A stretch of DNA of 64,000 nucleotides from Betaproteobacteria bacterium. Its GTDB lineage: Bacteria > Pseudomonadota > Gammaproteobacteria > Burkholderiales > Thiobacillaceae. The translations under genes and the position numbers were made by a program. Under the pieces are notes generated by a model. It was not told the origin of the DNA, did no database searches, and worked only from the letters and a program-made list of their open reading frames with translations. Location: the NCBI GenBank assembly GCA_016873935.1, contig VGVT01000002.1:1-64000 (forward strand). Reading direction: 5' to 3'. Below, piece after piece: positions 5,968 through 35,075 of the stretch (positions within the stretch are counted from its first letter, which is position 1; the number at the start of each line of letters is the position of its first letter).

Positions 5968-7125
5968 TCAGGGCTTGATTTCCACCCTGCGGTTGGGAGC
6001 CAGGCAGGCGATGGTGGCCTTGCTGGCACCACCCTTGCATTGTTTCACCGGCTCGCTCTCGCCCTTGGCGATGACCTCGACGTCGGCGGCGGCGACGCCC
6101 TTCTCCACCATGTACTTCTTCACGGTTTCCGCCCGGCGGCCGGACAGCTTGAGGTTGTAGGCAGACGGCCCGAGGCGGTCGGCATGGCCGGTCACCCGCA
6201 GGATCGTACCCTTGGGCAGGGGCTGTTGCAGCCAGGCGTCGAGCTCGGCGCGGCCCTGGGCGCTGAGTTCGGCGCGGTCGAAATCGAAATGGGCAAGGCC
6301 GTCCTCCAGGGTGATCGGCTGCGGCGCGGCGACGGCTGCGGGTGTCGTCGGGGAGGAAGCTTGCTTCACGGCGGCGGGTGCCGGCGCTGCCGGCACGATG
6401 GCTACGCTTGTCGCCGGCGCGGCAGCAGCGGCTGGCGCCAGCGCGATCGGTGGCTTGCTGGCCGGCACCGGGCTCGGGGCGGGGGCGGGCTTGACAGGCG
6501 CTTGCGCGACCTCGGCCGGGCGCGTGGGCAGTGGCGCGGCAGCGGCCTTGGTTTCCGCGGCGGGCGCGGCGGCAACGATTTCGGGCCGGGGTGCGGGGGT
6601 AACCACCACTGTCGGCGCCGGACTCGCGGCGGCCACGGGCAAGCTCGCCGCGACGGCTTTCCTGTCCACCGGGGCAACCGTCGGGGGCGTCACCGCTGGC
6701 TGGGCGGGGGTAGAGACCGCAACCGGCGCGGGGGCGAGCACCGGGGCCGGCGCTGGAGCGGCAACCGGGGCCGGGACGGGAGCCTGCATGACGGGTTTGG
6801 CCGCCACCGTGCTGGGCATCGGGGCGGGCTGGGGCGCGGCGGCGGCCTGGGCCGGGAACGGCGGCAGGAACGGATAGGGTGGCAGCGCCTGCGTCATCGG
6901 CGCATTCAGGGGCAACGCCACCAGGGGCGGCACGCCGGGCGGCACACATTGCGGCGCGGGGCCGACCATGCCGACGGGCTCGCACTGGCTGAAGCCGTTG
7001 GACAGGGTACGGCAGACCTGACTGATCGAATAGATGAACAACTGGGCGCAGTCCTGCGCCCGCACGGAGACGGGCTGAAACATAGCCGTGGCCATGAGCG
7101 CCACTACCAGAGCGCGTGGTTGCAT
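5968..7125 (-). CDS. OmpA-family protein with long Pro/Ala linker
   Basis: 385 aa. A signal peptide ends near VRAQ. A short Cys-containing region follows (DCAQLF, QVCRTL, QCEP, QCVPPG; four cysteines, possibly two disulfides), then about 190 residues of Pro/Ala/Val-rich low-complexity sequence. Residues about 275-385 form an OmpA-like peptidoglycan-binding domain (HFDFDRAELSAQGRAELD, VTGHADRLGPSAYNLKLSGRRA, NRRVEIKP). The D and R that bind diaminopimelate are present. The linker could span the periplasm so that the N-terminus contacts the outer membrane, but no beta-barrel is seen. It appears to be a single-gene unit. Confidence 0.8.
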   Translation of the reverse strand: MQPRALVVALMATAMFQPVSVRAQDCAQLFIYSISQVCRTLSNGFSQCEPVGMVGPAPQCVPPGVPPLVALPLNAPMTQALPPYPFLPPFPAQAAAAPQPAPMPSTVAAKPVMQAPVPAPVAAPAPAPVLAPAPVAVSTPAQPAVTPPTVAPVDRKAVAASLPVAAASPAPTVVVTPAPRPEIVAAAPAAETKAAAAPLPTRPAEVAQAPVKPAPAPSPVPASKPPIALAPAAAAAPATSVAIVPAAPAPAAVKQASSPTTPAAVAAPQPITLEDGLAHFDFDRAELSAQGRAELDAWLQQPLPKGTILRVTGHADRLGPSAYNLKLSGRRAETVKKYMVEKGVAAADVEVIAKGESEPVKQCKGGASKATIACLAPNRRVEIKP

Positions 7126-13442: not shown

Positions 13443-14153
13443 TTATTTCATGGCCGCGTCAAAGCGGCGGTTGACCTCGTTCCAGTTGACCACGTTCCAC
13501 CAGTTGGTGACGTAGTCCGCGCGCTTGTTCTGGTACTTCAGATAGTAGGCGTGCTCCCACACGTCCAGGCCCAGGATGGGGGTGCCGCGCTGGATTTCGG
13601 GCAGGTCCATGAGCGGGTTGTCCTGGTTGGCGGTGGAACTGACGGCGAGCTTCTTGTCCGGGGTGACCATCAGCTAGGCCCAGCCGGAACCGAAGCGGGT
13701 CATGGCAGCCTGGTCGAAACGCTTCTTCATCTCCGCCATGGAACCGAAGGTCTTGTCGATGGCCGCCGCCAGGGCCGCGCTGGGCGCGCCGCGCTGGCTT
13801 TCCGGCGCCATCACCTTCCAGAACAGGTCATGGTTGTAATGGCCGCCGCCGTTGTTGCGCACCGCCGTGTTGAATTTGGACATCTGCCCCTGCATCGCCT
13901 CCAGGGACATGCCCGCCAGTTCCGGATAGGTCTTGATCTGGGCGTTCAGGTTGTTGACGTAGGCGTTGTGGTGCCGGCCATGGTGGATTTCCATGGTGGC
14001 CTTGTCGATATGCGGCTCCAGGGCGTCGGCCGCATAGGGCAGCGGCGCCAGGGTGAACTGGGCGCTGGCCAGCATGGGCACGAAGGCGGCGGCGAGGCCG
14101 AGCAATACGGAATGGGAGCGCGGGGCGCGGCAAGCGCCGGGGGTGTGCATCAT
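13443..14153 (-). pseudogene. Periplasmic Fe/Mn superoxide dismutase, interrupted by an in-frame TAG
   Basis: Would encode 236 residues, starting at ATG 14153 (CAGGAG upstream) with a signal peptide ending in ASAQ. The N-terminal SOD domain shows MEIHHGRHHNAYVNNL and GGHYNHDLFW, holding two metal ligands. After RFGSGWA the frame meets TAG at 13674-13676, exactly where the family has tryptophan in GSGWAWL. The same frame then continues [11 protein letters not shown] and [11 protein letters not shown], which holds the remaining Asp and His metal ligands. The gene is otherwise intact. A single TGG-to-TAG change, readthrough, or a sequence error explains it. Truncation would remove half of the metal site. 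Confidence 0.88.
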
Positions 14154-15015: not shown

Positions 15016-15213
15016 GGTGGTTCTCCTGAAATGGGCGAGCGGCGAAAAGGCGCGCCGGGGATGGCGCGGCAGCCGGCTGTAGGCTGCACCGGAATCCGCC
15101 CGTCGGCTGCGATCCACGTCACAGCAACAGTGGCGGCGCCGCCCCCCCGGCGGCCGGGCCGCGCGGACCTCGATTCTACGACCGCGCGGGCCGCCGTCGC
15201 CGCACGGCGGTGT

Positions 15214-29420: not shown

Positions 29421-30767
29421 ATGTTCGATAATCTCACCGATCGTCTTTCCAAAGTCGTCAAGAACCTGCGCGGCCAGGGCCGCCTGACCGAAGCCAACAT
29501 CCAGGACGCCCTGCGCGAGGTGCGCGTGGCCCTGCTGGAGGCCGACGTGGCCCTGCCCGTGGTGCGGGACTTCATCGCCCGGGTGAAGGAAAAGGCCATG
29601 GGCCAGGAGGTGCTGCAAAGCCTCACCCCCGGCCAGCAACTCATCGGCGTGGTGCACAAGGAACTCACCGCCCTCATGGGCGAGCAGGCCGCGCCGCTCG
29701 ATTTCTCCACGCAGCCGCCGGCGGTGTTCCTCATGTCCGGCCTGCAGGGCGCCGGCAAGACCACTTCGACGGGCAAGCTCTGCCGCGTCATCCGCGAGGC
29801 CGGCAAGAAGAAGATCCTGGTGGTGAGCTGCGACGTCTACCGCCCCGCCGCCATCGAGCAGTTGAAGACCGTGGCCGGCCAGGCCGGCGTCGATTTCTTC
29901 CCCTCCTCCGGCGACCAGAAGCCGGCCGCCATCGCCGCCGCCGCCCTGGACCACGCACGGAAGCATCTCTACGACGTGCTCATCGTCGACACCGCCGGCC
30001 GCCTGCACGTCGACGCGGCGATGATGGACGAGATCAAGGACCTGCACGCCCTGTTGCAGCCCATCGAGACCCTGTTCGTGGTGGACGCCATGCAGGGCCA
30101 GGACGCGGTCAACACGGCCAAGGCCTTCAACGACGTCCTGCCGCTCACCGGCGTCATCCTCACCAAGCTGGACGGCGACGCGCGCGGCGGCGCCGCCCTG
30201 TCGGTACGGCACATCACCGGCAAGCCGATCAAGCTGGTCGGCGTCGGCGAAAAACTTTCGGGCATCGAGGTGTTCCACCCGGAACGCATGGCCAGCCGCG
30301 TGCTGGGCATGGGCGACGTGCTTTCCCTGATCGAGGAGGCGCAGCGCTCGGTGGATCACGCCGAGGCCATGAAGACGGTGCAGAAGCTGAAAAGCGGCAA
30401 GGGCTTCGACCTGGAGGACTTCAAGGCGCAGATGCAGCAGATGAAGAAGCTGGGCGGTCTCTCCTCGCTGGTGGACAAGCTGCCCGGCGCCGGCAAGCTC
30501 GGCGCCGGCGAACTGGCCCAGGGCGAGAAACAGATGCAGCGCATCGAGGGCATCATCAATTCCATGACCCCGGAGGAGCGGCGCAAGCCGGAAATCCTCA
30601 AGGCCAGCCGCAAGCGCCGCATCGCCGCCGGCGCCGGGGTGCAGGTGCAGGACGTCAATCGCCTGCTCAACCAGTTCGAGCAGGCCCAGAAGATGATGAA
30701 GTCGATGGGCAAGGGCGGCCTGGCGAAAATGATGCGCGGCATGAAGGGGATGATGCCGGGGATGTGA
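29421..30767 (+). CDS. ffh: Signal recognition particle protein Ffh
   Basis: 448 aa GTPase that binds 4.5S RNA and targets membrane proteins co-translationally. The NG domain contains GLQGAGKTTSTGKL, DVYRPAAIEQL, VDTAGRLHVD and LTKLDGDARGG. The C-terminal M domain is Met-rich (FKAQMQQMKKLGG, MMKSMGKGGLAKMMRGMK). Length is standard. Divergent from the ypjD-like gene. Confidence 0.97.
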   Translation: MFDNLTDRLSKVVKNLRGQGRLTEANIQDALREVRVALLEADVALPVVRDFIARVKEKAMGQEVLQSLTPGQQLIGVVHKELTALMGEQAAPLDFSTQPPAVFLMSGLQGAGKTTSTGKLCRVIREAGKKKILVVSCDVYRPAAIEQLKTVAGQAGVDFFPSSGDQKPAAIAAAALDHARKHLYDVLIVDTAGRLHVDAAMMDEIKDLHALLQPIETLFVVDAMQGQDAVNTAKAFNDVLPLTGVILTKLDGDARGGAALSVRHITGKPIKLVGVGEKLSGIEVFHPERMASRVLGMGDVLSLIEEAQRSVDHAEAMKTVQKLKSGKGFDLEDFKAQMQQMKKLGGLSSLVDKLPGAGKLGAGELAQGEKQMQRIEGIINSMTPEERRKPEILKASRKRRIAAGAGVQVQDVNRLLNQFEQAQKMMKSMGKGGLAKMMRGMKGMMPGM

Positions 30768-30951
30768 TTCGCCCCCCCGGAGTCGCCGCATCATCGCTTC
30801 GGCCACGCGACGGACCTGTCCGGGTCTGAACCCGCGCGGAATCCGGAGGCGTTCCACCGAATCGTGGGGATGGTTGCCGGAATGTCCGGGTCCCGATACA
30901 TTCCGCGCAGCCCGCTGGCAGCCCCCGTGATAACCCGAACTTGGAGAGACC

Positions 30952-31974
30952 ATGCACAAGACCTTGTCCGCTCTGCTCACCGGCCTGTTCCTCACCCAGG
31001 CTCCCCTCACCGCCCACGCTTTCCTCGGCATCAAGCTTGGAGGCGGCGACGACAAGAACACGGTGTCGGGTTCCGCCGGCCCCGATGGCGCCAAGAATGC
31101 CCCGGCCGCCCTGGAAAAGTGCGACAAGCCCTACGGTACCCTGGCCGTTTCGGAGCCGCAGGATTATGTGGGTCAGGCCCTCATGTAGTACGGCCTGCCC
31201 TCCCCCGTCGGCCTCATCCGCATGATGATCCAGCAGTCCAATTGTTTCGTGGTGGTGGAGCGCGGCCGCGCCATGCGGAATCTGATGCAGGAGCGGGATC
31301 TGGCCAAGAGCGGCGAATTGCGCAGCGGCTCCAACATGGGCGGTGGCCAGATGGTCACCGCCGACTACGTGCTGACCCCGGACGTGGCCTTCTCCAACAA
31401 GGACGCGGGCGGCGTGGGGGCGGCGCTGGGTGGCCTGTTCGGCGTGGGCGGCGCCCTGTTGGCCGCGGGTTTGAAGTTCAAGGAAGCGCAGACCAGCATG
31501 CTGCTCGCCGATTCCCGCACCAGCCTGCAGGTCGCTTCCGCCACGGGCATGGCGAAATCGAGTGACTTCAGCCTCGGCGGCATCGGCTTCGGCGGCGGCG
31601 CCGTGGGCGCCCTCGGCGCCTACGAGAACACCGCCGAGGGCAAGGTGGTGGCCTCCGGCTTCATGGACAACTGGAACAACATCGTGCGCGCCGTCCGCGA
31701 CAACCCGGACATGCAGCGCCAGCAAATCAGCCTCAAGGGCCCCTCGGGCAAGCCCACCCAGGCCGGCGGCGGCTTCCAGAGCGGCGACGTGATCACTGGC
31801 AAGATCGGCGGCCTCAAGGTCTATGCCGAACCCAACAAGAACAGCAAGGTGCTGTCGAACTTGAAGCGCGGGGATGAACTGGTGTTCACCGGTGACATCA
31901 AGAATGGCTTCCTGGCTGTGGAGGGTAATGACGGGGCGGGCTGGGTGGACCAGAATCTGGTGCGCAAGAACTGA
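30952..31974 (+). pseudogene. CsgG/curli-assembly-like exported protein with in-frame TAG
   Basis: The 340-codon frame begins at ATG 30952 (GGAGAG upstream) with a signal peptide ending in AHA. KCDKPYGTLAVSEPQDYV is followed by TAG at 31186-31188 and then, in the same frame, YGLPSPVGLIRMMIQQSNCFVVVERGRAM, MVTADYVLTPDV and glycine-rich segments typical of CsgG-like proteins. About residues 285-340 form an SH3-like domain (GLKVYAEPNKNSKVLSNLKRGD). The TAG falls inside the conserved segment before YGLPSP, so a sense codon was lost. No clear re-start with a ribosome-binding site follows. Sequence error or readthrough cannot be excluded. Confidence 0.75.
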
Positions 31975-31992
31975 CCTCGCCGATTCCCGATG

Positions 31993-32019
31993 CATAGGCC
32001 CCGCGGGGCCTATGTTTTT
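31993..32019. terminator. Rho-independent terminator
   Basis: A perfect 22-base palindrome (CATAGGCCCCG and its complement) followed by TTTTT, 18 bases after the CsgG-like gene. It lies between that gene and the convergent GGDEF/EAL gene. Confidence 0.85.
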
Positions 32020-32033
32020 GCCGCCGCGGCCGC

Positions 32034-34946
32034 CTACATATTCCGCTCACGCAACAAAACCTCGAATTCCGCCGCCGGTACCGGGCGGCTGTAGAGATAG
32101 CCTTGGTAAGCGTCGCAGCCCTGTTCCACCAGATAGGAGAACTGTTCGCGAGTCTCCACGCCTTCCGCCAGCACCTTCAGTCGGAGTTTCCGCGCCATGG
32201 CGATGATGGTGGAGACGAGCTCCCGATCGCCGGTATCGTGCGTGAGATCGCGCACGAAACTCTGGTCGATCTTGAGTTGGTCGAGTGGGAAACGCTTGAG
32301 ATAGGCCAGCGAGGAATAGCCGGTGCCGAAATCGTCAATGGCTAGACCAACTCCCAGTTCCTTGAGGCCGCGCAGCGCGTCTTCCGCGTCTTCGCCCTGG
32401 TGCATCAGGGCGCCCTCGGTGAGTTCCAGTTCCAGCGCCGAGGCGGGCACACCGGTTTCCTCAAGCACCCGTCGCACCACTTGGGCGAAATCCTGCTGGC
32501 GGAACTGTCGCGGCGAGATGTTGACCGCAAGGGGAACCGGCGTCAGTCCGATGTCGCGCCAGCATAGCCACTGCTCGCAAGCCTTGCGCAAGACCCACTC
32601 GCCTAGGGGGACGATGAGCCCGGTCTCCTCCGCCAGGGGGATGAACTGGTTGGGCGGAATCAAGCCCTCGACTGGATGTAGCCAGCGCACCAGGACCTCG
32701 GCGCCGATCAGGCCGCCGTCCGCCAGGCCCACCTGGGGCTGGAAGTGCAGAACGAACTCGCCGCGCTCCAGAGCCCGGCGCAGCTTGGTCTCCATCTCCA
32801 GGCGCTGGTTGGCGTTGTCGGTGAGGGCCTGCGTGTAAAAGCCATAGGCGTTGCGGCCCTGATCCTTGGCCTGGTACATGGCCACATCGGCATGCATGAT
32901 GAGCTCGCTGTCGCTGTCGCCATCCTCGGGATAGAGGCTGATGCCGATGCTGGCGCCAATGTATACCTCGTGTCCTTGCGACAGGGTGAAGGGCTCTGCC
33001 AGAGCCTCCAGCAGGCTGCGCGCCACCATGGCGGCGTCGCGCGGCTCATGGATGCGTTCGAGCAGGGCGATGAATTCGTCTCCGCCCAGCCGGGCCAGGG
33101 TATCTTCCGCCCGCAGGCGCTGGCCCATGCGATCGGTGACCGCCCGCAGCAGTTCGTCGCCCACCTGGTGCCCCAGGCTGTCGTTGACGTTCTTGAAACG
33201 GTCCAGATCCAGGAACAGCACGGCCAAGCGTGTCTGCTGACGCTGCGCATGCTCGATGGCGTGCCTGAGGCGTGAACTCAGCAGCAAGCGGTTGGGCAGA
33301 TCGGTCAGGGGATCGTAGTGGGCCAGGTGCGCGAGCCGGGCTTCCGATTCCTTGATCTTGCTTATATCGGTGAACATGCCGACATAGTGGCTGACGCTGC
33401 CCTGGGAATCGTGCACGGCGCTGATGGACAGCAGTTCCGGATACACCTCGCCGGACTTGCGACGGTTCCAGATCTCGCCCTGCCAATGGCCGGCCTCGCG
33501 CAAGGCACGCCAGATCACCGCGTAGAAGTCGGGATCGTGCCGACCCGAGCGCAGCATCACCGGCGTCTGTCCGACAACCTCATCCTCCTCATAACCGGTC
33601 ACCCGCGTGAAGGCCTGATTCACCGCCAGGATCCGGCTGTGCGGATCGGTGATCATGATGCCTTCGTGGGTGCTTTCGAATACCGTCGTCGCCAGACGCG
33701 ACTTGGCCTCGTCGCGCAAGCGTTCGCTGATGTCGAAAAAGGTCACCACCGTGCCCACCACTTTGCCGGAACGGCGCATGGGATAGGCCCAGTATTCCAC
33801 CGGGATGCTTACGCCGTCGGCCCGCCAGAACACTTCGTGGTCGATGTGGATGGGTCGTTCCTCGCGCAAGGAGTGGCCGATGGGACAGGCATCGTGGGGG
33901 TACGCATCACCGTTGTCGTGGTGATGATGGATCAGGGCGTGGATGTCCCTGCCCATCAGCTCTTCGCTGTCGGTGTATCCGAGGAGACGGGCGCAAGCGC
34001 GATTGGCGAAGGTGCAGCGGCCGTCGTGATCAATGCCGTAGATCGCCTGGGCGGTGGACTCCAGCAGCAAGCGTACCAGTTCCTCGCGTTCGCGCAGTTC
34101 CAGCGCGCGCGCGGCGATGGCTTCCGCCATGCCGTCGAACGCCCCGCCGAGACGAGCGAGTTCGTCACCGCCGGGGAGTTCGGCACGCGCGCGCAGGTCA
34201 CCCGCCGCCAAGCGATCCGCCGCGTGGCGAATTCGCTTGAGCTTGCGGATCACGAACAACTGGGTCAGCAGCGCGACCGAGACGAAGGCGGCGAGCATGA
34301 GCAGCAATTGTTGGAATAATTGCTGGCGCCATACGCTCATGATCCGTTCCTCGACCGCGGAAACCGGTACCTTGATGCTCATCAGCCCGCGCAGGTCGCC
34401 TACCCGGTAGCCGAAGGCGGCGGGATAGCGATCGCGCACCACCTCCGGGGCGTCGGCAGGATCGCCATGGCATTTCAGGCAGTACTGCTCCACCCAGATC
34501 GGAGCGGAATAATGGTAATAGGCGCTGCCGTCGGCGGCGGTGAAAGGCACGAAACGCTCCTTGCTTTTCGGCGAGGAGCGGAAATAAGCCATGGCCTCCA
34601 GCTCAATGGCATCGGCCTGATTTGCGGGATTGCGCGGACGATCGGACACGTTGTTGAAGGTCATGCCATTGCGCATCCACAAATTGAAATTCTGCGAGAT
34701 ACGGCTCATGGTGTGGGCCGGCAGAAAATTCAGGGTGCGCTCGTCGATGCTCAGGCCACTTTCCAGGAAGGCATGCTGATAGGTGCGCCGCGTCGCCATC
34801 AAGGTTGCGTGCAGGATCAGCGCCTGCTCGCGCAGTTCGCTGAGGATGTTGGCGCGACTCTCGCTGTAGTTGTTCCATTCGAACAGCGCGAACAGCGCCA
34901 GAAACGCGGCGCCCATGCCGAGCCAGAGTTTGCTGCGTAGCTTCAT
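32034..34946 (-). CDS. Haem-motif sensor diguanylate cyclase/phosphodiesterase
   Basis: 970 aa from ATG 34946. A membrane helix (about 7-25) is followed by a periplasmic DUF3365/Tll0287-like domain with CLKCH at residues 156-160, a c-type haem-binding motif. A second helix (about 210-235) and HAMP lead to two PAS domains, then GGDEF (RLGGDEFIALLE, intact) and EAL. The EAL signature is EVLVRWLHP, a conservative EVL variant, with EGVETREQ and DDFGTGYSSLAYL intact. It probably senses redox state or gas ligands and adjusts c-di-GMP. Single gene, convergent to the CsgG-like gene. Confidence 0.9.
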   Translation of the reverse strand: MKLRSKLWLGMGAAFLALFALFEWNNYSESRANILSELREQALILHATLMATRRTYQHAFLESGLSIDERTLNFLPAHTMSRISQNFNLWMRNGMTFNNVSDRPRNPANQADAIELEAMAYFRSSPKSKERFVPFTAADGSAYYHYSAPIWVEQYCLKCHGDPADAPEVVRDRYPAAFGYRVGDLRGLMSIKVPVSAVEERIMSVWRQQLFQQLLLMLAAFVSVALLTQLFVIRKLKRIRHAADRLAAGDLRARAELPGGDELARLGGAFDGMAEAIAARALELREREELVRLLLESTAQAIYGIDHDGRCTFANRACARLLGYTDSEELMGRDIHALIHHHHDNGDAYPHDACPIGHSLREERPIHIDHEVFWRADGVSIPVEYWAYPMRRSGKVVGTVVTFFDISERLRDEAKSRLATTVFESTHEGIMITDPHSRILAVNQAFTRVTGYEEDEVVGQTPVMLRSGRHDPDFYAVIWRALREAGHWQGEIWNRRKSGEVYPELLSISAVHDSQGSVSHYVGMFTDISKIKESEARLAHLAHYDPLTDLPNRLLLSSRLRHAIEHAQRQQTRLAVLFLDLDRFKNVNDSLGHQVGDELLRAVTDRMGQRLRAEDTLARLGGDEFIALLERIHEPRDAAMVARSLLEALAEPFTLSQGHEVYIGASIGISLYPEDGDSDSELIMHADVAMYQAKDQGRNAYGFYTQALTDNANQRLEMETKLRRALERGEFVLHFQPQVGLADGGLIGAEVLVRWLHPVEGLIPPNQFIPLAEETGLIVPLGEWVLRKACEQWLCWRDIGLTPVPLAVNISPRQFRQQDFAQVVRRVLEETGVPASALELELTEGALMHQGEDAEDALRGLKELGVGLAIDDFGTGYSSLAYLKRFPLDQLKIDQSFVRDLTHDTGDRELVSTIIAMARKLRLKVLAEGVETREQFSYLVEQGCDAYQGYLYSRPVPAAEFEVLLRERNM

Positions 34947-35075
34947 CGTCCCGCCCATGCCGGTGGTGGTCGGATAACGGCAGGATGACGGCAAGCTTTA
35001 GTATTAATGAACCATCCGACCGGGATGGTCTTTGCATTTCAACGAGTCCCCCCCGCCGCGATCAGGGGGCCGCAG
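34947..35075. other. Short spacer between sensor and deacetylase genes
   Basis: No protein or RNA gene is seen. It probably contains the promoter of the GGDEF/EAL gene. Confidence 0.4.

Follow-up and report, generated by a model that had tools for sequence, protein, structure and literature searches.

An in-frame TAG codon breaks the gene for a CsgG-like exported protein in the betaproteobacterial genome G000, and we consider it probable, at roughly 80%, that this codon arose by a recent nonsense mutation in a dispensable accessory gene, or represents a nonsense allele of that gene which entered the consensus of a fragmented assembly. The window, by which we mean the whole stretch of 64,000 nucleotides that was analysed (G000:C2:1-64000), belongs to an assembly of 2.70 Mb. 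The TAG at 31186-31188 is codon 79 of the forward-strand frame 30952-31974, which extends from ATG 30952 to a terminal TGA and counts 340 codons, or 341 with the TGA included. Translation would begin at 30952 and end after 78 residues, and the product would be an exported stub from which the SH3-like domain is missing entirely and the CsgG-like domain for the most part. The gene would be off, with no full-length protein made, and the remaining frame would still be intact since the mutation is young. As in a young pseudogene, we found intact orthologues, one interruption, and a gene that is dispensable in near relatives, and the case looks like ordinary gene loss, not like a new way of reading the genetic code. 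The amber codon looks striking in one window, but an examination of the sister species, the release factor, the tRNA set, and further genes of this genome gives it an ordinary reading.

The interrupted gene and its predicted product

The initial annotation, which described an amber codon inside a CsgG-like exported protein, agrees with the Pfam CsgG match above cut-off (residues 92-242, 31.2 bits vs 20.8) that we obtained for the broken frame (Table 1). Its statement that the downstream part carries most of the CsgG-like domain and an SH3-like end is likewise borne out by the two Pfam matches contained in residues 80-340, of which the one to SH3_3 is slightly under its cut-off (26.3 vs 27). 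Membership in the CsgG family (PF03783) is indicated by fold as well as by sequence, 6l7a_A being the best fold match. The structure model behind the fold matches was built from 58 sequences and has a mean pLDDT of 59.3, an earlier one having been set aside as too poor (pLDDT 40.6), and in it codon 79 closes a predicted helix in the first part of the CsgG-like domain.

CsgG has a lipid anchor and membrane beta-hairpins. Unlike this lipoprotein, the protein described here has, as judged by eye, no lipobox cysteine; its first cysteine (residue 57) is far from the signal peptide, and we therefore regard it as a CsgG-like protein and not as curli CsgG. It further differs from the family in the added SH3-like domain, and the model confidence is low (pLDDT <50) in the segments 149-177 and 202-221, the expected places of the CsgG membrane hairpins. 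The NCBIfam search gave a single match far under the cut-off, and PDB sequences searched with a profile yielded four weak matches, none of them to CsgG.

Table 1. Positions of the features discussed, in window coordinates unless another locus is named.
Feature	Position	Strand	Basis
CsgG-like exported protein gene, broken at codon 79	30952..31974	+	frame, translation, Pfam CsgG, intact orthologues
In-frame TAG (codon 79), closing the predicted helix 71-79	31186..31188	+	sequence, structure model
Shine-Dalgarno-like GGAGAG ahead of start codon ATG 30952	30943..30948	+	read in sequence
Next in-frame ATG codons, without Shine-Dalgarno-like sequence	31222..31227	+	read in sequence
Likely signal peptide, residues 1-23, no lipobox Cys	30952..31020	+	translation judged by eye
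CsgG-like domain, residues 46-259	31087..31728	+	fold match 6l7a_A, Z 12.7, rmsd 5.1, 154 aligned
SH3-like domain, residues 278-340	31783..31971	+	fold match 4krt_B, Z 11.2, rmsd 1.3, 63 aligned; Pfam SH3_3 under cut-off
Upstream neighbour SRP54/Ffh, retained in sister G015	29421..30767	+	Pfam, synteny
Downstream neighbour PAS-GGDEF-EAL protein, retained in sister G015	32034..34994	-	Pfam, synteny
Stretch of 1293 bp, vs 63 bp in sister G015 (C27:37716-37778)	30768..32060	.	synteny comparison
Fe/Mn superoxide dismutase gene, likely signal peptide	window 13446-14150, TAG 13674-13676	-	homology
LemA-family gene	L140:6442-7026, TAG at 6574	+	homology
Repeat protein with peptidoglycan-binding domain	L145:13724-15151, TAG at 15020	-	homology

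The reading frame is kept on both sides of the stop, as had been claimed: the identity with ten intact orthologues, all of them open through the position of the TAG, is 59-76% along the length, and a chance frame is therefore no issue. The codon-usage score is also high on both sides (0.39 and 0.52 per codon). The two in-frame ATG codons that follow, 11 and 12 codons past the TAG, could be taken for the start of a second product of a split gene. In agreement with the earlier statement that no convincing re-start exists, the bases ahead of ATG 31222 and 31225 (GCCTCATCCGC) contain no Shine-Dalgarno-like run, and a product started there would have no signal peptide and would miss the first part of the CsgG-like fold. 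The comparison with relatives revealed no homologue beginning past the TAG, and all of the tested genome_contigs loci whose match spans residue 79 (80/80) are open upstream, each with a start codon 40 or more codons ahead of the corresponding position. A split gene is thus extremely improbable.

Relatives, age of the stop and loss in the sister species

The CsgG-like gene was matched in 13 of the 61 genomes searched, the window's own included, and within the genus it was found in 5 of 23, one of the five being a weaker partial match. The nearest named loci are metagenome assemblies labelled Thiobacillus, Hydrogenophilus, and Burkholderiales. The alignment comprises 93 rows spanning the site, one of which is the window itself; among the other 92, which include six contigs that, judged by their lengths, are present in both collections and distant rows that are less surely aligned, the residue at the TAG site is Arg in 41, Ser in 20, Gln in 11, and Gly in 8, with others in the remaining rows, and TAG at the equivalent site occurs in none (0/92). 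The site varies widely, and the three close orthologues of the genus have AGC. Between AGC and TAG lie three changes, so the lineage must have passed through another, unseen codon, a point that counts against a simple nonsense mutation. A distant relative (L050:962-1999, plus strand) was seen to carry an in-frame TAA at the equivalent of residue 282, before the SH3-like end. When viral contigs were scanned with a pattern of the amber context, no match was obtained.

The sister species G015 has a mean nucleotide identity of 94.7% with the window genome over 158 matched genes, and a search of its genome with the CsgG-like protein gave no match. In G003, the CsgG-like gene sits between both of the same neighbours, in G016 it comes after Ffh, and in G010 before the GGDEF-EAL gene, the other neighbour in the latter two not being found in the stretches read. 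The simplest reading of this gene order is that the common ancestor already carried the CsgG-like gene here and that G015 lost it by deletion. The gene can be lost, because it was deleted in the sister between retained neighbours, and the complete deletion in G015 shows a more advanced stage of the same fate.

The dN/dS values between the window and four orthologues are 0.27-0.33, compared with 0.22-0.40 among those four, and past the TAG they amount to 0.30-0.33 for the window vs 0.21-0.43 for intact genes. Otherwise invariant columns are changed at three places in the window and at 0 to 6 in the ten intact rows. Since the values are similar to those among intact orthologues, the stop must be young unless it has been read through, and from these values and the invariant columns it follows that the gene has undergone no long neutral decay. 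The same resemblance counts against the reading as a recent nonsense mutation, as the lost function has no independent sign when dN/dS after the stop is like that of intact genes. The distances of 0.18-0.20 for the window branch vs 0.09-0.10 for G016 hint at a longer window branch, as faster decay of this gene might produce, which is not present in three neighbour genes compared with G016, but Tajima tests of this branch gave conflicting results, with chi-square values from 0.00 to 8.96 in six pairings.

The TAG could also be a base error or the product of a mixed-strain consensus, the gene in the cell having a sense codon. The assembly is in 121 contigs, and C97 (L192) duplicates part of C74 (L193), 4021 bp at 97% identity with a tRNA-Gln gene included, so a strain mixture with two variants of one stretch is likely in the assembly of G000. 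However, the AGC of the relatives differs from TAG at three of three bases, and a single miscall needs another true codon. Moreover, the differences from the sister contain no excess of C to T (1483 vs 1600 T to C), and G to A is matched by A to G (1081 vs 1067); with the counts balanced in this way, a C to T mutator or damage was rejected. We regard a base error or strain mix as unlikely, even though a fixed mutation, a consensus polymorphism, and a base error are not separable from the assembly sequence alone.

Decoding of UAG and other interrupted genes

RF1 is intact in the window genome (prfA on C6, 541.4 bits, no internal stop), and TAG serves as an ordinary terminator that ends 54 of the 380 predicted genes in 461 kb. 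A CUA anticodon was sought among the 44 tRNAs above cut-off and found in none (0/44), the assembly being given as 98.26% complete, and the search with the tRNA-Sec model gave no match above its cut-off. A tRNA-Sec-like suppressor candidate at G000:C43:2658-2733 was discarded as a GGGAAAA-type repeat with a weak model match, in which ARAGORN finds no tRNA, and a relaxed ARAGORN run over 40 stretches produced noise only. No stimulatory structure was detected in the 101 bases after the TAG (z 0.28).

The scan for in-frame stops covered 1.26 Mb (47% of the genome), i.e., the window and 60 stretches, and three further genes with an in-frame TAG were confirmed by homology, encoding a superoxide dismutase, a LemA protein, and a peptidoglycan-binding protein. 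At the site of the superoxide dismutase TAG, TGG is present in 19 of 19 relatives, the sister included. At the LemA site, 14 of 19 relatives have Gln and five distant ones Arg, and the sister has CAG. The TAG of the peptidoglycan-binding protein falls shortly after the likely signal peptide, at a site that is CAG in the sister and a gap in the five other long relatives. The three sister codons, TGG, CAG, and CAG, are each a single transition away from TAG. Because the sites call for Trp, Gln, and Gln, no single suppressor fits, and orthologues of the CsgG-like gene likewise vary between Arg, Ser, Gln, Gly, and others. These differing residues, together with the intact RF1, the normal use of TAG as a terminator, and the lack of a UAG-reading tRNA among the 44 above cut-off, led us to reject genome-wide recoding or UAG reassignment. 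The gene anatomy proposed initially (CsgG-like protein, SH3-like end, frame, lack of a re-start) holds, whereas recoding, amber read-through, or any other step past the interruption itself finds no backing in our data.

Read-through of UAG by a near-cognate tRNA or an unassembled suppressor, by which some full-length protein would be made, is suggested by the intact frame and dN/dS past the TAG and by the three more in-gene TAGs in the sampled part of the genome. According to the passages of Belinky et al. (2021, PMC7918605) that concern such stops, in-frame stops are widespread in bacterial genes and mostly short-lived, and read-through is argued to be common. Against it stand the tRNA set, the tRNA-Sec search, RF1, and the regular use of TAG as a terminator, the sequence after the stop that showed no structure, the residues called for at the three other sites, and the loss of the gene in G015, so that read-through is quite improbable here. 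A variant, in which low-level UAG read-through by an ordinary tRNA throttles the CsgG-like, superoxide dismutase, LemA, and peptidoglycan-binding proteins so that small amounts are made, seems more doubtful still. If read-through were true, it would represent a naturally occurring leak at amber codons that affects envelope proteins of an uncultured betaproteobacterium.

The interruption of the CsgG-like gene resembles the cases in those passages of Belinky et al. (2021, PMC7918605) in that a lone in-frame stop breaks a frame that is conserved elsewhere and has dN/dS <1, and one of their examples is a TAG where relatives have CAG. The passages focus on stops common to at least two species, whereas the TAG here occurs in one genome only. 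In a passage of Shulgina and Eddy (2021, PMC8629427), pseudogene stops are described that can mimic stop reassignment, and the likeness to our case lies in in-frame stops reached by single transitions, e.g., from Trp codons, without a suppressor tRNA. That passage concerns yeasts, whereas the case presented here is bacterial.

A further point against a nonsense mutation in a dispensable gene is that 4/4 interruptions are TAG and all apparently lie in exported or membrane-bound proteins, which could hint at something systematic. Going by codon usage, about 60% of the possible nonsense outcomes in this genome would be TAG, and the chance that all four homology-confirmed interruptions are TAG is thus about 0.13. 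The apparent export or membrane location shared by the four proteins is a post hoc observation. The last filter of the scan passed 57 stops with a coding signal on both sides (41 + 16); most of the other passing stops were taken by eye as gene ends followed by a new start, and the absence of TGA or TAA cases is not proven by this sorting. One of the in-frame stop candidates of the scan is a TAA at L149:5624.

In the comparison with the sister species, 192 of 327 G015 genes were matched in G000 stretches and displayed three apparent stops and two net frame changes. Two of the stops are the superoxide dismutase and LemA TAGs, and the third (CAA to TAA) was taken as an alignment effect, since the gene has compensating gaps nearby. 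In the reverse direction, 188 of 1197 G000 genes were matched; on the G015 side, four genes had six apparent stops between them, and there were seven net frame changes. Greater damage in G000 than in its sister is thus not shown by these gene comparisons. The G015 counterpart of a 730-codon G000 gene (L254 vs L280:14923-17112, plus strand) is 90.5% identical and contains three apparent stops as well as gaps that change the frame; either the sister's copy has decayed or the two sequences are misaligned.
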